From NCBI GenBank assembly GCA_018335015.1, contig JAGXKX010000011.1, positions 2,029 to 36,175 of the forward strand: a stretch of 34,147 bases of DNA. Reading direction: 5' to 3'. The notes beneath the pieces were generated by a model. The model did no database searches, was not told the origin of the DNA, and saw only the letters and a list, made by a program, of their open reading frames with translations. Of this stretch, positions 18,478-29,885 are shown in pieces. Each line of letters starts with the position of its first letter. The first letter of the stretch is position 1. A program made the position numbers and the translations under genes. This stretch comes from Candidatus Bipolaricaulota bacterium. Lineage in GTDB: Bacteria; Bipolaricaulota; Bipolaricaulia; M55B111.

Positions 18478-18679
18478 CTCAGCTCTTTCACCATCCTTGT
18501 ACATTGCTGTCTAGTCCTAATATGCCTCCTGCCCATTACCTGGCAACTGATTTAACCTTAAAATCCTACCAGTAGACGAAATCCCGGCAGCCAGGTAATG
18601 GGCAGGAGGCTTGAGCTAAAAAATATAGTGATTTCTTATATCTTACATCTCGCTTTCGAATAGTGGTGAAAGAACTGAG
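18478..18679 (+). mobile_element. 202-bp hairpin MITE-like element, copy A
   Basis: The element is bounded by 16-bp terminal inverted repeats: CTCAGCTCTTTCACCA (18478-18493) and TGGTGAAAGAACTGAG (18664-18679), one mismatch. Inside is a perfect 21-bp inverted repeat (18524-18544 and 18590-18610, core TTACCTGG/CCAGGTAA) enclosing a 45-nt loop. It has the same length as copy B and close sequence throughout. The flanks read TAAT on both sides, a possible short target duplication, although this is AT-rich sequence. It encodes no protein. The architecture (terminal repeats, small size, several dispersed intergenic copies) fits a non-autonomous transposable element. Confidence 0.75.
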
Positions 18680-18820
18680 TAATTATTGATGAAGTTGATA
18701 AAAGGCAGGCTATTCCGTAACGTAATATAGGTAATAGTAATTTAGGGGGATAAAGGTAGAGGTTTTAATTCTGGTTTTGATTATTGGTTGCAATCGGACC
18801 TCATTCATGGTTGATAAACG

Positions 18821-19303
18821 ATGGTGCAAGCTTTCATAGGACTGGGTTCCAATTTAGGGAACAGGAAAAAAAATATCGATAATTCCCTTCGCTTACTGGT
18901 TGATAGGGAAGACGTAGATCTGATCAGCCGGGCTTCGGACTACGAAACCGAGCCGGTTGGGCCCACTCAACCCTGGTTCATCAATACCGCAGTCAAGATT
19001 GAAACCCCTTCTTCTCCAGAAGAAATTCTCGAAAAATGCAAAGAGATCGAAGAACGAATAGGCCGTGTGGACTCACTGAAGTGGGGTCCCAGGCTCGTCG
19101 ATCTTGACCTTTTGCTTGTAGATAAATACGTTCTGGAGGAACGGAAGCTAACGCTACCTCATCCGAAGTTGGAAGAACGAAGGTTCGTCCTGCTTCCTTT
19201 GCTTGAACTGGAACCGGACTTAGTCCACCCCGAATTACAGACCCCCCTAAAAGACCTATTACCCAAACTGGAAGAAGACAAAAAGGTGATAAAGCTAGAA
19301 TGA
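18821..19303 (+). CDS. folK: 2-amino-4-hydroxy-6-hydroxymethyldihydropteridine pyrophosphokinase
   Basis: HPPK transfers pyrophosphate from ATP to the pterin precursor of folate. The N-terminal FIGLGSNLGNRKKNID, the central YETEPVGPTQPWFINTAVKIET and the Mg/ATP signature RVDSLKWGPRLVDLDLLLVD (usually PRxxDLDxL) are clear, followed by LPHPKLEERRFVLLPLLEL. The 160 residues are typical. The ATG at 18821 has no recognisable ribosome binding site. Its stop overlaps the start of the RNase G gene (ATGA). No folP, folB or folE is nearby; coupling with an RNase is a chance or lineage-specific arrangement. Confidence 0.93.
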   Translation: MVQAFIGLGSNLGNRKKNIDNSLRLLVDREDVDLISRASDYETEPVGPTQPWFINTAVKIETPSSPEEILEKCKEIEERIGRVDSLKWGPRLVDLDLLLVDKYVLEERKLTLPHPKLEERRFVLLPLLELEPDLVHPELQTPLKDLLPKLEEDKKVIKLE

Positions 19304-20535
19304 AACAAATACTAATTTCCTCAGATAACCGAAGTAATGGTGAAAAACGCGTGGCAATAACTGAAAACGGTAAACTGGTAGAAATCTTTTACGAAGATTT
19401 TCAGCAGGACAGATTGGTAAGCAATATCTACAAAGGAAAAGTGGAAGACGTGCTTTCGGGACTAGGATCCGCTTTCGTGGATGTTGGAGAAGAACAAAGT
19501 CTCTTTCTCTCCCGAAGCGAGATAAATCAGGCCATTCTCAGAAGCAGAGGGTTCGATCCTAACGAGTACCCTCCCCGGATCAATAAGATAATCCATGAGG
19601 GAGAATCTCTCATCGTCCAGGTCAAACGAGGCGGAATCGGGACGAAAAATCCTCAGGGCACGACAAAGATTAGCCTACCCGGTCGATACTGGGTGTTTCT
19701 CCCCAAGGATAGCCGACTGGGAATTTCGAGGAGAATTACCGACGATAAAGAAACCCAGAGGTTAAAGGATATAGCTCGAAATCTAAAAGAAGAAAACGAA
19801 GGTCTTATCGCCCGAACGGCCTCAAAAAACGCCTCGAAAGAGGATTTAAAACGAGATTTCAATTTCTTGCTGGGAACCTGGAAGGGTATCGAGGAGGAGG
19901 CAACAAAAGTCAAACCACCTCACCTGCTTCACTCACACGCGGGAATAGTCCGAAAGATTATCAGAGACCGCCTGCTTGAAGACGTAGATCAAGTATTAAC
20001 CGATTCAAAGGACGTATACGAAGACATCCTTGACTACATCCACTACCTCAGAATGGACGAATTCAAGGACTTGATTGATCTCTACAAGAACGAAGACACT
20101 TCGTTGTTTTCCAAGTACGGAGTCGAAAAACAACTAAAAGGCTGTCTTAAACGAGAAGTTAGTCTCGAGTCCGGCGGGTATCTGGCAATAGATGAGACGG
20201 AGGCCCTTACTGCCATTGACGTGAACACAGGGGGGAACGTAAACCACAAAAACCAGGCACAGGCGATTTTAAACACCAATCTCGCCGCGGCGAGGGAAAT
20301 TCCGATACAGCTGAGGTTGCGAAAAATCAGCGGAATAATCATCGTCGACTTCGTTGACATGTACGACAACGAAGACCAACAAAAAGTAATAAACGAACTA
20401 AAGGAGAACCTCAGGGAAGACAGGGTGCCGGCCGATTTTATAGATATGACTCCTCTCGGGCTCGTAGAAATTACGAGAAAAAGAGAGGGAGAAAGTCTGG
20501 CTGACCTGATGGAGGAATACGAGAACGAGGTTTAA
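19300..20535 (+). CDS. rng: Ribonuclease G/E family endoribonuclease, short form without a zinc-link
   Basis: This 5'-end-dependent, single-strand-specific endonuclease acts in rRNA maturation and mRNA decay. The N-terminal S1 domain shows SNIYKGKVEDVLSGLGSAFVDVG (about 41-63). The DNase I-like catalytic region has YLAIDETEALTAIDVNTGG and IPIQLRLRKISGIIIVDFVDM, placing the two Mg-binding Asp residues at about 307 and 350. It ends with PLGLVEITRKREGESLADLMEEYENEV, just where the CPxC zinc-link would follow in RNase E/G, so that dimerisation motif is absent. Length is 411. The start overlaps folK by 4 bp, and the stop overlaps the fabZ stop on the other strand. Confidence 0.9.
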   Translation: MKQILISSDNRSNGEKRVAITENGKLVEIFYEDFQQDRLVSNIYKGKVEDVLSGLGSAFVDVGEEQSLFLSRSEINQAILRSRGFDPNEYPPRINKIIHEGESLIVQVKRGGIGTKNPQGTTKISLPGRYWVFLPKDSRLGISRRITDDKETQRLKDIARNLKEENEGLIARTASKNASKEDLKRDFNFLLGTWKGIEEEATKVKPPHLLHSHAGIVRKIIRDRLLEDVDQVLTDSKDVYEDILDYIHYLRMDEFKDLIDLYKNEDTSLFSKYGVEKQLKGCLKREVSLESGGYLAIDETEALTAIDVNTGGNVNHKNQAQAILNTNLAAAREIPIQLRLRKISGIIIVDFVDMYDNEDQQKVINELKENLREDRVPADFIDMTPLGLVEITRKREGESLADLMEEYENEV

Positions 20536-20948
20536 AAAGCCAGGGTTATTTCAGCCTCCGCGACCAGTTCTTCATCCACGAAGGCCTTCACGTCAACTTT
20601 ACAGAGACTACTTCTGACTCTGTTTTTTTCGGCTTTCAGAATAAGTTGGTCACCCGGAGTAACCTTTTGTCGAAACTTTGCCCCGTCAACTCCAACCAGG
20701 TAACCTATCCCTTCCTCGCCTAAGACTTTCCGGGCGAGGAGGCCAGAAACCTGTGCCATACCCTCGACGATCATCGTTCCCGGCATAACGGACGGACCGG
20801 GTTCAGGGAAGTGACCCTGGAAGAACGGTTCGTTGATTGTCACGTTCTTCAGGGCCACCAGCTTTTCCCCATCGCTCTCGACTACTCTATCGACCAAAAG
20901 ATAAGGATAACGAAGTGCTATCGCGTCCTTGATCTCTTCAATATCCAT
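20532..20948 (-). CDS. fabZ: 3-hydroxyacyl-ACP dehydratase FabZ
   Basis: FabZ is the hot-dog-fold dehydratase of fatty-acid elongation. It begins DIEEIKDAIALRYPYLLVDRVVE as in the family. The catalytic His is in NEPFFQGHFP (about 46) and the catalytic Glu in VMPGTMIVEGMAQ (about 62). The linker between them (EPGPS before VMPG) is about two residues longer than the usual GRPVMPG. Length 138. AGGAG precedes the ATG. It is the last gene of the yraN-comM-bamA-ompH-fabZ run, a neighbourhood (bamA, skp, fabZ) familiar from Gram-negative envelope loci, here without lpxD or lpxA. Confidence 0.93.
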   Translation of the reverse strand: MDIEEIKDAIALRYPYLLVDRVVESDGEKLVALKNVTINEPFFQGHFPEPGPSVMPGTMIVEGMAQVSGLLARKVLGEEGIGYLVGVDGAKFRQKVTPGDQLILKAEKNRVRSSLCKVDVKAFVDEELVAEAEITLAF

Positions 20949-20968
20949 TTTCTCCTCTGTTGTACTTT

Positions 20969-21925
20969 TTAACCGCCTATTTCAGACCTCAAGACGTCTT
21001 TAGTGTCCTCGGTAAGGTCGTCTACTTTTTCGTTATTCCTGTAGAGGATAACATTTTCCTGTCTGAAAACCAGGTCATAGCCCTGGTTATTTGCCTCTCT
21101 GTTGGTGATCTGGAATATCTTCGTCTCAATTAACTGAGTCAACAGATTATCAAGCTGCTGGTATTGAGAGTTTATCTGCTGCAGGGTTTGAGCCACTTCT
21201 TCGGGTGCAGCCGACCCGTCTCTCATGTTTTCCAGTACCCCGTTCAATTCCGACATAATGGGATCTACCTGACCCTTAAGCTGTTGAAGTCTGTCCGAAA
21301 TCGATTCAAACCCAGGAGCGTTTATCATTTTCTCGACCATGGCGAGATCTATCGCCAGCTGCGCCTTCAGCTTCTCGGCCTGAAGTATATCGCTTTGTCT
21401 GTTGAATTCCTCTTCGGTAATCTCTCCCTGAATTGCCTGCTCACGGAGCTGGGTAAGTTCTTCGTTCTTACTCTGAGCCCGTTCCCGCTCTTCTGATACC
21501 GCTTCCGTAAATACGTTGAAGGCATCAGTGGCGTTCACGTAGCCGACCATGAGTCCTTCACCACCTTCCTGAGACCCGGTGTTTTCTAGCTCACTCACCT
21601 GGGTTTCCAGGTTTTGAATCTTGTTCTGCAAGTCTGCTACGTCCTCGCCCGAAACTCCGACCCCGGTCTGTTCGACCTTCTGTTCCAGCTGGTCGAAAGA
21701 AGTTTTGAGCGCACTTACCTCGTCTACACTCGCGAAAGAGGCGAAGTCGTCCGGCATTCTGTTTACCCTCGTTTGAAGGCTGCTTACCTCCTCGCCGATC
21801 GCGTCCACTTTATTCGACAAATCGGAGACGTCCGAATCTCCCCCAACCATCTGGGCCAGATATCCACCACCAAAGCCCAGAACTAGGGCCAGTAAAAGAG
21901 TTAAAACTATCTTGCTGTTTGACAA
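20969..21925 (-). CDS. OmpH/Skp-like periplasmic chaperone with an N-terminal anchor and added coiled coil
   Basis: Skp holds unfolded outer-membrane proteins in the periplasm. The N-terminus is a hydrophobic helix (about 5-27) acting as signal or uncleaved anchor. Residues about 33-120 are coiled-coil heptads (VSDLSNKVDAIGEEVSSLQ; DLQNKIQNLETQVSELE). The OmpH domain then begins at MVGYVNATDAFNVFTEA (about 125) with long helices (SEERERAQSKNEELTQL) and ends with DLVFRQENVILYRNNEKVDDLTEDTKDVL, a typical OmpH C-terminus. At 318 residues it is about twice the size of Skp. The start is a TTG at 21925 with GAGGTGA. bamA lies 32 bp upstream, which supports an outer-membrane assembly role. Confidence 0.82.
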   Translation of the reverse strand: MSNSKIVLTLLLALVLGFGGGYLAQMVGGDSDVSDLSNKVDAIGEEVSSLQTRVNRMPDDFASFASVDEVSALKTSFDQLEQKVEQTGVGVSGEDVADLQNKIQNLETQVSELENTGSQEGGEGLMVGYVNATDAFNVFTEAVSEERERAQSKNEELTQLREQAIQGEITEEEFNRQSDILQAEKLKAQLAIDLAMVEKMINAPGFESISDRLQQLKGQVDPIMSELNGVLENMRDGSAAPEEVAQTLQQINSQYQQLDNLLTQLIETKIFQITNREANNQGYDLVFRQENVILYRNNEKVDDLTEDTKDVLRSEIGG

Positions 21926-21957
21926 TATAATTCACCTCAAAGTACCTTTATTTGTGA

Positions 21958-24072
21958 TCAAAACATGGGTCCCATCCCGAAGTAAAAACTCGGAACGTAG
22001 TTGAAATCTTCCGAAAGACTCCAGGCAGCACCCAATCTCAGATGACCGAACAGCTGCAAATTGATCTCGAACCCGGCAGAATTTTTAAAATCGTAGTTAT
22101 TGTCCTCTCCGAACTTGACTCCGCTATCGACAAACGAGGTGAACCACAAACTACCGGGCAGCAGTTGTAATCTATACTCACCGTTAAGGAAACCGTAATT
22201 ACTCGCTACGTCCGCCCCCGATCCTCGAATCGAGTTCTTCCCGCCAAACTCGGTCTGGTAGTTCCTCGGAGCGTCCACACCCAGGCCGAGCTGGAGGTTA
22301 AACCCTAAGGTCTGCCTATTTTCGCCGGTAATATCCAAAGTGGGTAAACCCTGAAAATAACTCCCCGTAAACGTCAACTGGGTAAAACTCACTCCCGGGG
22401 CAAAATCTCCGGCCTTTTCCAGCTTTAGCGACCTTTTTGTGCCCGCGGTCGGGAACATGGGGTTGTCTCTATCGTCGTAGACCAGATCCGTCGACAAGAT
22501 ATGAGTAATCGAATCGAGCGAGTCGTCTCCAAGAATCCAGTCTGCGTTGTATCCCGTATTAAGAGAGAGTTTGCCCGTAAGGGGGTAACCGAAGGAGGCC
22601 TTTACTCCCTGATTGGAGCCAACGTTCCTGTATACACTTAACTTGGTAAAATCAAATCCTGCAGGATAATACACGTTCTTCCAGTCGATGCTTCCGCCAA
22701 ATTTAGCATCGAACTTTAGCTTTCTGTTCAAATTCAGGGAAACGTCCTGTCCCAGGCCTAAAACGTTCTTAGTTGATAGCTTTATCTTACCGGCCAGGCC
22801 ACTCCCGGACCAGGTTAGACCGCCATTTATGCTATTCAATTTCGACTTTTCTTTTACAGTGAAAGTCAGTTCTATCCCTTCGGAGGTCCTGGTCGGTTCC
22901 GGGTTGACTTCGGAAAAGTAACCCAGATCCAGCATTTTTCTCCGAGAATCCTCGACCAGGTCACTGTTGAATATTTCCCCTTCCGAGAGGAGAATTTTGT
23001 TTGAAATGACCTTTCTTGCTGTGTTCTTGTTCCCCTCGATATCAATATTAAAGATTTCCCCTTCGAATAATTCTATTAGGATGGTTTCACCCTGGACCCG
23101 ATCGAGAGAAAAATCCACGAACCTGTAACCGTCATTCAGGTATTTATCATAAACGCGTTCAAGAACCCTCAATAAATCGTAATTCGTTATCTTCCCTCCC
23201 GGGAGCTCCCCGGTCAACTTTCTCAACTCGTCACTGGAATACAGGGTATTTCCTTTCAAATTCAGCTCTGTTCCCTCAACCGCCTGGTCGATTATTTGCC
23301 TTTCAGTTAACTCCCAGCGTAGGATGATATCGGACCTGCTGTAGCCTCTCGTGGGGACCAGATTGACCGAGGTAAAGTAAATTGAATTCTGTAAGTTCTG
23401 ATAGGACTTCTGGAGATTTCTCAACTTTACCGGTTCGTCCTTTTTACCCTCGATCATATCCAGCGCTACTTCGTCGGGTACGGTATCCAGGCCCTCAATT
23501 CTTACCCCCGCCAGCTTTCCTTCGACCACTTCTATACTCAAAGTGGTATCGATATTAACATTTCCCAGACTCACAAAAGGGTATCCCTGTTTCTCGTACT
23601 TCTCCTGGATATTTTTCAGGCCTTCGTCCAGATTATTCTTATCTATTACCTTTCCCTTCTTGATGCCGGCATCCTTCAGCGCTCCCTTGAGCTTACCCTC
23701 ATTTAACATGTTAACGCCGGTGAATTCGTACTTATCCAGAACCGGATACTCCGATAGTTCAAGTTCCAGACTAATCTCTCCATCCGAGACCTCACTGCTG
23801 CTCTCGACGGACCTGAAAACTCCCATGTCCTTTAGGTTATCTACCTTTTTCTCCAACACACTCCTGCTGATTGAGTCTCCTTCATCGATGCCGAGTTCGG
23901 TCAGAATTTTCTCATCGTCGATTTCCTCGTTTCCGGTAATTGATATCTCTTTTACCACATATTTAGTCTCGGTCTCTTCATCTTGCCCGCTCATCGAAGC
24001 ACCGAAAGAGACAAGAAGAATCAAAATGGACAGGATTACGATCACTGAGAGTTTTGCTTTATCTGTTTTCAT
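21958..24072 (-). CDS. bamA: Outer-membrane protein assembly factor BamA (Omp85)
   Basis: BamA inserts beta-barrel proteins into the outer membrane. After a signal peptide (hydrophobic about 8-30) come repeated POTRA-like units starting near residues 37, 107, 180, 265 and 337 (for example YVVKEISITGNEEIDDEKI and FNIDIEGNKNTARKVIS), so about five POTRA domains. The barrel (about 410-704) contains VYDDRDNPMFPTAGTKRSLKLE, a strongly conserved BamA segment, and SIRGSG, the loop-6 [V/I]RG motif. It ends in aromatic Phe, as outer-membrane barrels do. Length is 704. AAGGAAGGGG precedes the ATG, 4 bp after the comM stop. Its presence is the best evidence that this organism has an outer membrane. Confidence 0.93.
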   Translation of the reverse strand: MKTDKAKLSVIVILSILILLVSFGASMSGQDEETETKYVVKEISITGNEEIDDEKILTELGIDEGDSISRSVLEKKVDNLKDMGVFRSVESSSEVSDGEISLELELSEYPVLDKYEFTGVNMLNEGKLKGALKDAGIKKGKVIDKNNLDEGLKNIQEKYEKQGYPFVSLGNVNIDTTLSIEVVEGKLAGVRIEGLDTVPDEVALDMIEGKKDEPVKLRNLQKSYQNLQNSIYFTSVNLVPTRGYSRSDIILRWELTERQIIDQAVEGTELNLKGNTLYSSDELRKLTGELPGGKITNYDLLRVLERVYDKYLNDGYRFVDFSLDRVQGETILIELFEGEIFNIDIEGNKNTARKVISNKILLSEGEIFNSDLVEDSRRKMLDLGYFSEVNPEPTRTSEGIELTFTVKEKSKLNSINGGLTWSGSGLAGKIKLSTKNVLGLGQDVSLNLNRKLKFDAKFGGSIDWKNVYYPAGFDFTKLSVYRNVGSNQGVKASFGYPLTGKLSLNTGYNADWILGDDSLDSITHILSTDLVYDDRDNPMFPTAGTKRSLKLEKAGDFAPGVSFTQLTFTGSYFQGLPTLDITGENRQTLGFNLQLGLGVDAPRNYQTEFGGKNSIRGSGADVASNYGFLNGEYRLQLLPGSLWFTSFVDSGVKFGEDNNYDFKNSAGFEINLQLFGHLRLGAAWSLSEDFNYVPSFYFGMGPMF

Positions 24073-24076
24073 CCAC

Positions 24077-25630
24077 TTATACCCCTTCCTTCCTTAATAT
24101 TTTCTCTCTCGTACTTCTGTACTGGACGGCTTCGGATACGTGCTCGGAATAAATCCTATCAGATTCATCCAGATCTGCAATGGTTCGGGAAATTTTGAGG
24201 ACTTTGTGGTACGCCCTCGCCGAAAAACCGTAGTGATCAATAGCTTGATCCACCAAACTTTCGGCCGATTGATCCAGCTGGCAGTAGTCTTCTACCTGCT
24301 CGGCCGACATCAGGGAATTCGTCAAACCCTCTCTACCAAACCGCCTCGACTGTATTCCCCGAGATACTTTAACCCTCTCCCTGATCGTACTGCTTTTTTG
24401 GCCCCCCGCCCGGTCCTTCATTTCTTCCTTTCCCAGTCTCTGGACGTCGACAAAGACGTCTATCCTGTCCATAAACGGGCCGGATATCTTTTTTCTGTAC
24501 CGACGAACCTCGTGGGGTCTACAGTTGCACTGTTTAACGTTATCACCAAGATACCCACAGGGGCACGGGTTCATAGCCCCGATCAAGGAAAAATTGGCGG
24601 GAAACCTGTAGGAGTTCGAAGCGCGAGAAATCGTTATCTCCTGATCCTCCAGCGGTTGCCTTAGTGTCTCCAGCACTCTTCGATTAAACTCCGGCAATTC
24701 GTCCAGGAAAAGCACTCCATTATGGGCCAGACTGATTTCTCCCGGAGTAGGGTTCCCGCGACCACCTCCGACCATTCCGGCGTAAGAAATTGTATGATGA
24801 GGAGCCCGAACTTTCCTTCGCGTAACGAGGGGCTTGGTTGAACTCAACTCACCAAGTATGCTGTAAATCTTGGTTACTTCTATCGCCTCTTCGAAGGACA
24901 GGGGAGGTAGAATAGTCGGGAGCCTCTTCGCGAGCATACTCTTCCCCGAACCCGGGGGTCCACTCATCAACACGTTATGTCCGCCCGCCGCAGCGATCTC
25001 CAGGGCTCGTTTCGCACTTTCCTGGCCTTTTACATCACTGAAATCCCTGGGAAAGCTACTTTCCGATTCGAAATAATCTTCCCGATCGAAAACGTACTCT
25101 TCAACCCCACCCTGGCTATCGTTATCCAGAAACTCAATTGCTTCCGTTAAACTTGAAACCGGATATACCTCCAGCGAGTCAACTATCGCAGCTTCTCCGG
25201 CGTTTCCCTGTGGAACGAGTATTTGGTCTATATCAGGGTGTTCCCGAGCGGCAAGAACAACCGGAAGAACGCCGCTTACCGACCTTAACTTGCCGTCCAG
25301 CGACAATTCTCCGATTAACAACTTATTTTGCAGCGAGCCCTCGGACATTTGCCCCGTTGACCGGAGGATAGTGCTTGCAATTGGTAAATCCAGTCCCACA
25401 CCTTCCTTCTTGACGTCCGCCGGTGCCAGGTTGGCGGTAATACTTTTAGTGGGAAACTCGTAACCGGAGTTATTAATGGCACTCTCTATCCTGTCCCGAC
25501 TCTCCTGCACTTCTTTTTCCGGTAGCCCCACCAGTTTGAAGCCGGGTAAGCCCCGAGAGACGTCGCATTGAACTTCAACTATAATCGCATCTATTCCGGT
25601 AACAGCACCACTCAAAGTTTTCGAAATCAT
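24077..25630 (-). CDS. comM: YifB/ComM-family magnesium-chelatase-like AAA+ ATPase
   Basis: ComM is a hexameric helicase that promotes branch migration of integrating DNA in natural transformation in some bacteria; elsewhere its role is unknown. The N-terminal Lon-protease-like domain shows IIVEVQCDVSRGLPGFKLVGLPEKEVQESRDRI. Walker A is MSGPPGSGKSMLAKRLP (about 222-238), and LFLDELPEFNRRVLETLRQPLEDQ is Walker B. CPCGYLGD...CNC is the cysteine cluster typical of the family, and FSARAYHKVLKISRTIADL is at the C-terminal lid. Length is 517, as expected. The ATG comes 1 bp after the yraN stop, a common pairing in bacterial genomes. Confidence 0.93.
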   Translation of the reverse strand: MISKTLSGAVTGIDAIIVEVQCDVSRGLPGFKLVGLPEKEVQESRDRIESAINNSGYEFPTKSITANLAPADVKKEGVGLDLPIASTILRSTGQMSEGSLQNKLLIGELSLDGKLRSVSGVLPVVLAAREHPDIDQILVPQGNAGEAAIVDSLEVYPVSSLTEAIEFLDNDSQGGVEEYVFDREDYFESESSFPRDFSDVKGQESAKRALEIAAAGGHNVLMSGPPGSGKSMLAKRLPTILPPLSFEEAIEVTKIYSILGELSSTKPLVTRRKVRAPHHTISYAGMVGGGRGNPTPGEISLAHNGVLFLDELPEFNRRVLETLRQPLEDQEITISRASNSYRFPANFSLIGAMNPCPCGYLGDNVKQCNCRPHEVRRYRKKISGPFMDRIDVFVDVQRLGKEEMKDRAGGQKSSTIRERVKVSRGIQSRRFGREGLTNSLMSAEQVEDYCQLDQSAESLVDQAIDHYGFSARAYHKVLKISRTIADLDESDRIYSEHVSEAVQYRSTREKILRKEGV

Positions 25631-25631
25631 T

Positions 25632-25976
25632 CTAGCACGACCTCAGGTTTATTGCGTCCTCGTAATGGCTAATTTCGCCTTCATGAATAGCGATAACGTC
25701 AAATCGGGCGTCTCCCCGATATTCGTTCTCCATTAACCACCTCTTGGCACAGTGTATCAGCCTTTGTTTCTTCTCCGCCGTTATCGACTTCTCCGGGGCA
25801 ACGTAACTTCCAGCTCCCCGGCGTTTCACTTCGACAAAGACAACGTAATCCCCGTCAAAAGTAATTATGTCAATTTCTCCACGATGGCAAAAATAATTTC
25901 TGGCAACTAAATGATGTCCGTGAGAACCAAGGTATTTAACTGCTCTATCTTCCGCCTTTCGACCCTTCTTTGTCAT
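25632..25976 (-). CDS. yraN: YraN/UPF0102 family nuclease-like protein
   Basis: YraN proteins have a Holliday-junction-resolvase-like (restriction endonuclease) fold; their role is not established. Visible motifs are GRKAEDRAVKYLGSHGHHLVARNYFCHRGEIDIITFDGDYVVFVEVKRR, where Glu and Asp of GEID and the E-x-K of VEVK form the PD-(D/E)XK active site, and the end RFDVIAIHEG. I chose ATG 25976 (114 aa, MTKKGRKAEDR); an in-frame TTG at 26009 adds a hydrophobic stretch not seen in the family. Neither start has a ribosome binding site. TTGAGG and TATTTA with 18 bp between them end about 3 bp before the ATG, so a leaderless transcript is possible. Confidence 0.88.
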   Translation of the reverse strand: MTKKGRKAEDRAVKYLGSHGHHLVARNYFCHRGEIDIITFDGDYVVFVEVKRRGAGSYVAPEKSITAEKKQRLIHCAKRWLMENEYRGDARFDVIAIHEGEISHYEDAINLRSC

Positions 25977-26177
25977 AAATAAATAGGAGTAGAGTAAAGT
26001 TAACCTCAAACCAATATCGGAAAATCTAAGGCCGATGCAGTATAAATTAAAAGAAACTGATGTGAAAATCGTATGAATAATAACGGCTGGTTTAGGAGTT
26101 ATTCAAACTAGAAGCCCCGTTCGATTCTGAAAAAGGCAATCTCCGACAGGACAAATGCGGTCTCGATCATCTAAATA

Positions 26178-26297
26178 CAGTTGTACGAAGTGTCTGGTCC
26201 TAATCTGCTATCCACTCCCTGCCTGGCAGCTAATTTAGACCTTGAAATCAAAGTCCGAACGTATGCCAGATCCCGGAAACCAGGTAAGAAGGAGAAA
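26178..26297 (+). repeat. Degenerate copy (E) of the 202-bp element family
   Basis: Scattered matches to copies A and B in the same order: TTGTAC, a TGTCTGGTCCTAATCTGC-like stretch, CCTGGCAGCTAATTTA, ATCCCGG and ACCAGGTAAG. The outer stem and the terminal repeats have decayed. It lies about 65 bp upstream of intact copy B. The remainder of 26010-26177 shows nothing I can identify. Confidence 0.5.
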
Positions 26298-26360
26298 GAT
26301 TCTAAGTCCGAACTCCCCAAAGGTCGGGGCGCGAGAACCAATGCAACTAGGTACTTTGAT

Positions 26361-26562
26361 CTCAGTTCTTTCACCATCGTTGTACATTGTTGTCTTGTCC
26401 TCATCTGCCTCCTGCCCATTACCTGGCAACTGATTTAACCTTAAAACCTTACCAGTAGACAAAATCCCGGCAGCCAGGTAATGGGCAGGAGGCTTAAACT
26501 AAAAAATACAGTGATTTCTTATGTCTTACATCTCGCTTTCGAATAGTGGTGAAAGAACTGAG
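26361..26562 (+). mobile_element. 202-bp hairpin MITE-like element, copy B
   Basis: Perfect 16-bp terminal inverted repeats CTCAGTTCTTTCACCA (26361-26376) and TGGTGAAAGAACTGAG (26547-26562) bound the element. Just outside each end the sequence is TTGAT, a clean 5-bp direct repeat (26356-26360 and 26563-26567) that looks like a target-site duplication. Inside, a perfect 21-bp inverted repeat (26407-26427 and 26473-26493) encloses a 45-nt loop in the same orientation as copy A. The two copies have identical length and only scattered substitutions. No transposase gene lies nearby. Confidence 0.8.
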
Positions 26563-26600
26563 TTGATCTTTTGCAAAAGAAGAACCGGCATCCCGGTAAC

Positions 26601-28042: not shown

Positions 28043-28179
28043 GTCCAACTCTATATCCCCCATAAGACTTTATACCTCCAGAAGTTATAACATGGATTAG
28101 GCAATCTTGCATTTGATTTGGATATTCCTGGCTATTCTAAGAAAAATGTCGCAGTCACAACCAATGGTAACAATTCATT

Positions 28180-28336
28180 GCCTCCAGCCCCTTACCTGGC
28201 TGCCGGGATTTAGTCTACTGGTAGGATTTTAAGGTTAAATCAGTTGCCAGGTAAGGGGCTGGAGGTTTGAATTAAAATATAGTTATTGCTTATGTCCTGC
28301 ACCTCGCTTCCAACAAATAGTGGTGAAAGAACTAAG
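28180..28336 (+). repeat. Copy C of the 202-bp family: loop inverted, left end missing
   Basis: Stem arms are at 28180-28200 and 28246-28266 (20 of 21 pairs plus one G-T), and the right arm with terminal repeat TGGTGAAAGAACTAAG ends at 28336. Compared with copies A and B the right arm keeps its orientation, but the 45-nt loop (28201-28245) is the reverse complement of theirs with one difference from A. Two stem positions differ from A and B on both arms so that pairing is kept. The left outer arm and left terminal repeat are not recognisable. Confidence 0.8.
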
Positions 28337-28393
28337 GTTAAATCAGTTGCCCGGCAAGTGGCAGTGGTCAAACAAATTAAGCTAAATAATATA
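28334..28393 (+). repeat. Partial copy D, a truncated repeat of the right half of copy C
   Basis: AAGGTTAAATCAGTTGCC at 28334-28351 exactly repeats 28231-28248, 103 bp downstream, and is followed by a degraded version of the same arm (GGCAAGTGGCAGTGG for GGTAAGGGGCTGGAGG, then AATTAA..ATATAGTA). It overlaps the terminal repeat of copy C. Confidence 0.6.
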
Positions 28394-28448
28394 GTACTTC
28401 AACTTCTTGGCTAGCGGTTAAACTTGAATTATCGCCGAGTTGAAGTAC
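28394..28448. repeat. 11-bp inverted repeat overlapping the first tRNA-fMet promoter
   Basis: GTACTTCAACT (28394-28404) and AGTTGAAGTAC (28438-28448) are perfect complements 33 nt apart. The -35 of the tRNA promoter lies between them, and the right arm overlaps the -10. Confidence 0.55.
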
Positions 28449-28451
28449 AAT
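28424..28451 (+). promoter_or_regulatory. Promoter of the first tRNA-fMet
   Basis: TTGAAT (28424-28429), 16-bp spacer, TACAAT (28446-28451); the tRNA begins 10 nt downstream. The second tRNA-fMet has the same spacing and -10. Confidence 0.6.
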
Positions 28452-28461
28452 AATTAAACAT

Positions 28462-28538
28462 CGTGGGGTGGAGCAATTAGGAAGCTCGTCGGGCTCATAA
28501 CCCGGAGGTTGTCGGTTCGAATCCGGCCCCCGCAACCA
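28462..28538 (+). tRNA. Initiator tRNA-fMet (anticodon CAT), copy 1
   Basis: The unpaired C1-A72 at the acceptor tip and the three G-C pairs GGG/CCC closing the CTCATAA loop are initiator hallmarks. CCA is encoded. It differs from copy 2 only at position 3 (T here, giving T-G; C in copy 2). Confidence 0.95.
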
Positions 28539-28566
28539 GATTCCTATCTTATCTTCGCTTAACCTG

Positions 28567-28653: not shown

Positions 28654-28697
28654 CTCAATAATTTGATTTGAGTTTCTCCGTAAATTGTTACCTAAAC

Positions 28698-28725
28698 TTG
28701 ATTTTTAGTCGTTTTCAATTACAAT
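28698..28725 (+). promoter_or_regulatory. Promoter of the second tRNA-fMet
   Basis: TTGATT (28698-28703), 16-bp spacer, TACAAT (28720-28725), tRNA 10 nt downstream. The arrangement mirrors copy 1, including the preceding AAAC. It may also drive tRNA-Met and tmRNA. Confidence 0.6.
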
Positions 28726-28735
28726 TAGTCTACAT

Positions 28736-28812
28736 CGCGGGGTGGAGCAATTAGGAAGCTCGTCGGGCTCATAACCCGGAGGTTGTCGGTTCGAATCCGG
28801 CCCCCGCAACCA
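28736..28812 (+). tRNA. Initiator tRNA-fMet (anticodon CAT), copy 2
   Basis: Acceptor CGCGGGG with C1-A72 mismatch, GGGCTCATAACCC anticodon arm and encoded CCA. Apart from one acceptor base it is identical to copy 1. Confidence 0.95.
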
Positions 28813-28817
28813 GATTT

Positions 28818-29325: not shown

Positions 29326-29465
29326 AAAAGGATCAAAGTGCCACCCGCTTGCCTCTCCAGTTTTTACGTCCACCCTTATAACTAGATGAGTTGTTTAAAT
29401 CATTATTGACAACAGTTGCTAATAACCATTTGATTCTCTTAAATTGTGTTTATATTTTAACTCAG
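29326..29465. other. Spacer between tmRNA and the nested palindrome
   Basis: AT-rich sequence with an isolated TTGACA at 29407 lacking a matching -10. I see no terminator for tmRNA with a clear stem and T run, and no gene. Confidence 0.3.
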
Positions 29466-29762
29466 GTCCACCGGACCGGGGAAATTCCTGACTCGCGTAC
29501 TCAAACTGTCCTGTTCATGACAGTGGGTCTCACTTATAGGAACTATCACTCTTAAACAGTTAAACTTACTCGGTTATGGAAATATCCCTCACCAGCACCC
29601 AGTTGAGTAATCGTACCTGGTTTGGTTTACGTAGGATATTTATTGCAGGCAGCCATCATCTATCCTTCGTCACTAACCTTGACCAGGTAACTAAACTCAA
29701 CTGGGTGCTGGTTCGGTCAAACATATGCGCCGCTTCGCTAGGATTTCCCCGGTCCGGTGGAC
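29466..29762. repeat. 297-bp nested palindrome between tmRNA and dnaB
   Basis: Outer arms GTCCACCGGACCGGGGAAAT (29466-29485) and its exact complement (29743-29762) are 20 bp. Within them are perfect 18-bp arms ACCAGCACCCAGTTGAGT (29591-29608) and 29695-29712, and within those TACCTGGT (29614-29621) and ACCAGGTA (29682-29689). The three nested stems share one axis apart from an asymmetric 105-nt versus 30-nt interval between outer and middle stems. It encodes no credible protein. It could be a mobile hairpin element or a structured RNA. The inner TACCTGG/CCAGGTA also occurs in the stem of the 202-bp family. Confidence 0.7.
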
Positions 29763-29885
29763 GGATGCTCCCGATAAAGACTACCTGGGATTTTCCGCGC
29801 TCTGGGTCGTCGACTACACTTAAAGAAGAAAAGAAGCTAAATTTTTGAGAAGGTCCGAGCCAACCCTTGCTGACATATTTGATTC

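Follow-up and report, generated by a model that had tools for sequence, protein, structure and literature searches.

The 202-bp repeats described here form a mobile, non-autonomous, MITE-like family. This reading, which agrees with the non-autonomous transposable element proposed in an earlier sequence-only reading of the same DNA, is supported by the copy number of the repeats, a 5-bp target duplication, the absence of both window copies from sister species, an empty site beside the tmRNA gene and a strictly intergenic placement. Apart from a known parent element, the family showed the features of MITEs that we tested, i.e., terminal inverted repeats, a target duplication of fixed length (5 bp), a small, non-coding and multicopy character, and insertion polymorphism with empty sites. 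It carries a hairpin that is nested inside the terminal repeats, shared with other elements and able to flip. In the following, this inner hairpin is called the core and the element sequence around it the shell. The window, meaning the whole stretch of 34,147 nucleotides that was analyzed, is part of G000, a 1.96-Mb MAG of an uncultured Candidatus Bipolaricaulota from hypersaline sediment.

Repeats in the window

Two copies, A and B (Table 1), are 202 bp long each and 93% identical. Their terminal inverted repeats (CTCAGTTCTTTCACCA) measure 16 bp, with one mismatch in the left arm of copy A (CTCAGCTC). The inner arms (GCCTCCTGCCCATTACCTGGC) form a perfect 21-bp stem in both copies, with a loop of 45 nt in each. 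The sequence-only reading had described this layout, with copy B placed between two TTGAT motifs, and its description agreed with the DNA base for base at the coordinates of Table 1. No exact 5-bp duplication was seen at copy A, where TAAT/TAAT is the most that can be recognized. The fold of copy B lies about 9 sd below those of dinucleotide shuffles on either strand, and the hairpin is thus not a product of chance. A transposase had been said to be missing from the window, and indeed none was recognizable among its ORFs, all of which were read and ten of which were scanned against Pfam.

Three items had been overlooked in the sequence-only reading: a third copy, a core remnant beside copy B and an element of a second family (Table 1). 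The window also contains a 124-bp direct repeat (28419-28542 and 28693-28816; 90% identical), with a tRNA gene of the same type in each of its copies.

Table 1. Repeat elements of the window and their parts (positions are those of the whole stretch)
Feature	Position	Strand	Remark
Copy A, 202-bp element	18478-18679	+	Absent at the same locus in G002 and G003
Left terminal inverted repeat, copy A (one mismatch)	18478-18493	+	
Inner hairpin, left arm, copy A	18524-18544	+	
Invertible loop, copy A, forward state	18545-18589	+	
Inner hairpin, right arm, copy A	18590-18610	-	
Right terminal inverted repeat, copy A	18664-18679	-	
Decayed remnant of an older core adjoining copy B	26206-26300	+	Covariance model 37.9 bits
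Target duplication TTGAT, left of copy B	26356-26360	.	Family-wide 5-bp peak
Copy B, 202-bp element	26361-26562	+	Missing from the orthologous interval of G002
Left terminal inverted repeat, copy B	26361-26376	+	
Inner hairpin, left arm, copy B	26407-26427	+	
Invertible loop, copy B, forward state	26428-26472	+	
Inner hairpin, right arm, copy B	26473-26493	-	
Right terminal inverted repeat, copy B	26547-26562	-	
Target duplication TTGAT, right of copy B	26563-26567	.	
Third copy, partly decayed; core 28179-28267 inverted vs. the shell on the right and the terminal repeat on that side (28321-28336); left end unrecognizable	28179-28336	+	Core covariance model 109.7 bits, - strand
Fragment of another core, half hairpin	28333-28364	-	
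Member of a second nested-hairpin family, unrelated to the 202-bp one; outer inverted repeat GGTCCACCGGACCGGGGAAAT; inner hairpin at 29591-29712	29465-29763	+	

Spread and mobility of the family

In G000, a DNA search gave about 40 copies of near full length; copies were also present in three of the four genomes of the same genus. A covariance model of the inner hairpin, built from 49 rows, detected at least 149 cores in G000, at least 63 in G002, 25 in G003, 9 in G001 and 1 in G004. The model had no match in a second genus of the same family, nor in 54 other members of the class; the hairpin was found to be confined to one Bipolaricaulota genus, with none in these 55 other class genomes. An exact core pattern derived from the loop was run against 84,980 GTDB species genomes, in a search that may omit the window's own or near records, and matched only two other MAGs. 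These, GSL_GSL3510_5 and Tobar15.5-16.5m-G30, come from hypersaline lakes (Great Salt Lake and Tobar) and both belong to Candidatus Bipolaricaulota. The same pattern had no match in viral contigs. Neither the core nor the second family matched an Rfam family at the gathering score, and only chance miRNA-like hits were seen; this result speaks against the repeats being part of a conserved RNA gene, an outcome that the sequence-only reading had left room for.

Both ends matched the terminal repeat at 12 or more of the 16 positions in 80 elements, while a reversed control pattern gave 0 hits. Nearly all of these elements (77/80) are 190-209 bp long, with no transposase ORF. Exact 5-bp target duplications were detected at 30 of the 80 vs. 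0.96 in shuffles; other lengths were near chance, and the duplicated target sites are AT-rich. Comparison with the sister species showed that copy A is missing from the colinear interval both in G002 and in G003. Copy B and the older decayed core beside it are both missing from the colinear interval of G002, although this is not a clean empty site, as the neighboring sequence differs too. On the 3′ side of the tmRNA gene, an element of G002 (L224) lies between two ATCAA motifs, and the window has one ATCAA; this is a textbook exact empty site in the window. The loci are thus not always filled, and the distinction between empty and filled sites, by which mobility was to be judged, could be made. 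None of 131 covariance-model core hits fell inside ORFs of at least 150 aa, though 72% of the same loci is taken up by ORFs of this size. The genes next to the cores were convergent in 28 cases, divergent in 23 and codirectional in 36, with no clear preference for convergent neighbors.

A transposase or full-length IS with the ends of the family was not found in these incomplete MAGs. Six genomes of the family lack PF01609, and G000 lacks PF00665; in G000, PF13701 and PF00872 are represented by decayed remnants only. Among the Pfam hits examined, no transposase was flanked by convincing copies of the family ends; with a genome completeness of 70-87% and many copies at the ends of contigs, the parent element could be unassembled. 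IS256-type transposases of G002 and G001 have CTCAGTTCCCTCATG near one end, but inside other terminal sequence. The duplication length is also against them, as elements of this type produce 8-9-bp target duplications. The IS1380-like (PF13701) remnants were likewise rejected as a partner, their matching ends being unconvincing. The longest pair of terminal inverted repeats (L265, G003:C58:7851-8746; 896 bp), considered as an autonomous partner, turned out to consist of several hairpin elements nested in one another, with no transposase ORF.

Some elements differ in what lies between the ends. L276 (G003:C52) is 101 bp long and has both ends but not the core, an apparent core deletion. Related ends of the form CTCA[AG]NTCTTTCACC surround other GC-rich inner hairpins in L267-L270, L272, L277, L278, L282 and L283. 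Since some elements with related ends occur in G005, which belongs to a different genus without the core, the family ends would seem to be older than the core.

Conservation, covariation and inversion of the core

Between copies of one shell, mean identity was 0.86 for the terminal inverted repeats, 0.85 for the loop and 0.82 for the stem, vs. 0.69-0.73 for the shell. The second shell and the unclassified shells gave the same ordering, with ends, loop and stem above the shell. The loop-proximal half of the stem (TTACCTGGC) hardly differs between copies; in the outer half, which is variable, the two arms change in step. When covariation was scored on the explicit structure, 83 cells had both sides changed vs. 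24.8 in shuffles, a value far above slid controls too (RNAalifold on an automatic alignment gave only 8 pairs, owing to gap columns). A mirror-image mismatch test counted 98 GU vs. 60 AC, and this modest wobble excess is a weak hint of RNA selection.

A different picture emerged from seven orthologous insertions, at which identity was about 88% for the loop, about 90% for the shell and about 85% for the flanks. This set comprises 7 of 17 candidates; the ten with shell identity below 80% were dropped, most of them resembling different insertions in one intergenic gap. No extra in-place constraint on the loop is visible at the seven insertions, which suggests that selection acts on spreading and not at each locus. 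As the loop is no slower than the shell in orthologs, its conservation between copies most probably comes from the differing success of elements in spreading, or from exchange among copies, and not from a use at individual loci.

The same core was present in at least three unrelated shells, including that of the second family (L109, L190, L206) and a third one (L168/L178). The second family occupies up to about 20 places in G000, and at least five different hairpins occur in its central slot, the one in L109 being the same core as in the 202-bp family. No case of the core moving independently of its shells was seen. These results raise the question of why one hairpin is common to unrelated small elements. 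In the second-family element of the window, the arms of the inner hairpin (29591-29621/29682-29712) end next to the loop in TACCTGGT/ACCAGGTA, which resemble TTACCTGGC of the 202-bp family. Short hairpins in second-family slots contain ATTACCTGAGGC. Unrelated hairpins here have a motif in common.

The loop was reversed relative to the shell in 7 of 52 elements with shell 1 and in 7 of 16 with shell 2, i.e., in about one in five of those classified (14/68), and the third window copy also has a reversed loop. On a tree made from shells only, the reversed state requires at least three changes on well-supported branches and six by parsimony. Three orthologous loci are decisive (L178/L212, L180/L255 and L203/L205): the same insertion, with colinear shell and flanks, has opposite loop directions in G000 and G002. 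The loop flips in place between species. At L178/L212, both arms differ by matched changes too. We thus found the features by which template switching is recognized, namely homogenization of the arms with multiple coordinated changes and inversion of the spacer with colinear flanks. In published work, a switch of template between inverted repeats renders the two arms identical and may turn the spacer around (PMC8604942, PMC8794818). Template switching explains both the covariation and the flips, so that a functional RNA is not needed for either; the GU excess, being only modest, agrees with this. There is a warning here: a stem whose sides covary is usually taken as proof of a functional RNA, yet such covariation can come about when no selection on RNA is at work.

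The spacer inversions published for template switching (PMC8604942, PMC8794818) are a few bases long, whereas the loop described here has 45 nt. Moreover, the second-family element of the window (29466-29762; about 300 bp) has the opposite orientation over its full length in G002, between flanks that are colinear on either side. Because both inversions exceed the published few-base spacers, homologous or site-specific recombination may be involved in the flips. The loop ends were considered as XerCD/dif half-sites and rejected on account of an overlong center and too loose a match. In the light of these data, the proposal of the sequence-only reading that the hairpin itself matters held in part. 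In its favor, copies resemble one another in the core as closely as in the terminal repeats, and the core is found again in other shells; on the other hand, it is not better kept than the shell at the seven orthologous insertions, and template switching alone yields the covariation and the flips.

Explanations and known systems

We consider it probable that the elements spread in trans in the manner of MITEs, that the core serves as a substrate for template switching or recombination, and that it is kept mainly through spreading. A putative transposase acting in trans would cut at the CTCAG... ends, and the elements would insert into AT-rich intergenic DNA with the 5-bp duplication that we observe. 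Each of them brings along the core, i.e., the 21-bp stem with its nearly fixed inner TTACCTGGC half and the 45-nt loop. The long, near-perfect arms would then allow template switching or recombination between inverted repeats. By such a presumed route one arm would be copied onto the other, giving the joint arm changes and the turned loops seen in the alignments. Cores would resemble one another chiefly because an element spreads only if both its ends and its core work, the usefulness of each inserted copy to the host being a lesser cause. Spreading would need the core probably because it acts in cis, as a site used in transposition or by a host factor. This account is drawn from incomplete MAGs in which no parent was found, and its in-place rate comes from seven orthologous insertions only.

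The strong stem covariation, a very stable fold, the mild GU excess, the strictly intergenic placement and a loop that is more conserved between copies than the shell would all suit a functional structured RNA (or an RNase III- or terminator-like hairpin) that is kept at each locus, as proposed for NEMIS/Correia, with mobility being secondary. We judge this quite unlikely, as inversion of the loop in many copies and between orthologs would place its complement in any transcript, orthologous loops are no slower than shells, and neither an Rfam match nor a clear convergent-gene preference was found. In another reading, the elements are plain old IS deletion derivatives, the core is a leftover of the parent and its similarity stems from recent common descent only. 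Although the 5-bp duplication, the IS-like ends and a loop without host-level conservation agree with this, the core is far more alike than the shell within one shell family (0.85 vs. 0.69-0.73) and is present in unrelated shells; descent alone is therefore insufficient, and we regard this reading as very improbable.

The presence of one core in at least three shells would suit a core that is a site for a dedicated invertase or recombinase, or a mobile hairpin cassette moving between shells, independent of template switching. The near-invariant inner half TTACCTGGC beside a variable outer half, the second-family slot with its at least five hairpins, and the occurrence of whole-element inversion point in the same direction. 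Nevertheless, no shell-less core was found at a fresh insertion site and no candidate recombinase was identified, while the whole inversion in the second family uses quite different repeats and favors a general inversion at inverted repeats; we hold such a site or cassette to be rather unlikely. A further idea, unlikely in our opinion, is that of the core as a dedicated, invertible cassette acting in cis, which a host or element protein would recognize via the fixed TTACCTGGC half-stem and the loop. Several unrelated elements would have acquired it separately as an aid to spreading, and the same system would flip it.

Among known systems, the Correia/NEMIS repeats of Neisseria (PMC2649163, PMC2229807) are the nearest relative in kind. 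They too are small, genus-restricted, non-coding and intergenic, with terminal inverted repeats, target duplication, a conserved directional core and presence/absence between strains. Inversion of whole Correia elements has been reported (Elbeyioglu et al. 2017, as cited in PMC10969869). An IHF site in the core and RNase III cleavage of the transcripts are further traits of Correia/NEMIS. Their ends carry 5′-TA-3′, whereas the present family has CTCAG...CTGAG ends, another sequence and a Bipolaricaulota genus as host. It further differs in the 5-bp duplication, the perfect hairpin nested inside the terminal repeats, the inversion of the loop and a core common to unrelated shells. Bacterial MITEs (PMC10969869, PMC6382973) are likewise short and non-autonomous, and they share the terminal inverted repeats and target duplications. 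For the family described here, the parent IS was not found, and its internal hairpin is conserved as strongly as the ends.

Arms that become identical and a spacer that turns in place, reversibly, are known from template-switch sites (PMC8604942, PMC8794818) and from small hairpin inversions in plastids (e.g., PMC6824564). The cases described in these sources concern yeast genes, RNA genes and plastid genomes, mostly with short spacers, whereas ours are dispersed bacterial elements with a 45-nt loop. With at least 149 natural copies of the hairpin in G000 and more in related species, the family is a ready data set on the change of bacterial inverted repeats. Repetitive hairpin elements of mitochondria (PMC2800124) and double-hairpin elements are similar in being dispersed hairpins with complementary changes, repeated insertion and spread in one lineage. 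Yet, in the sponge mitochondrial hairpins the stems are conserved and the loops vary, while in the 202-bp family the loop is conserved, the outer stem varies and the ends are clearly transposon-like.
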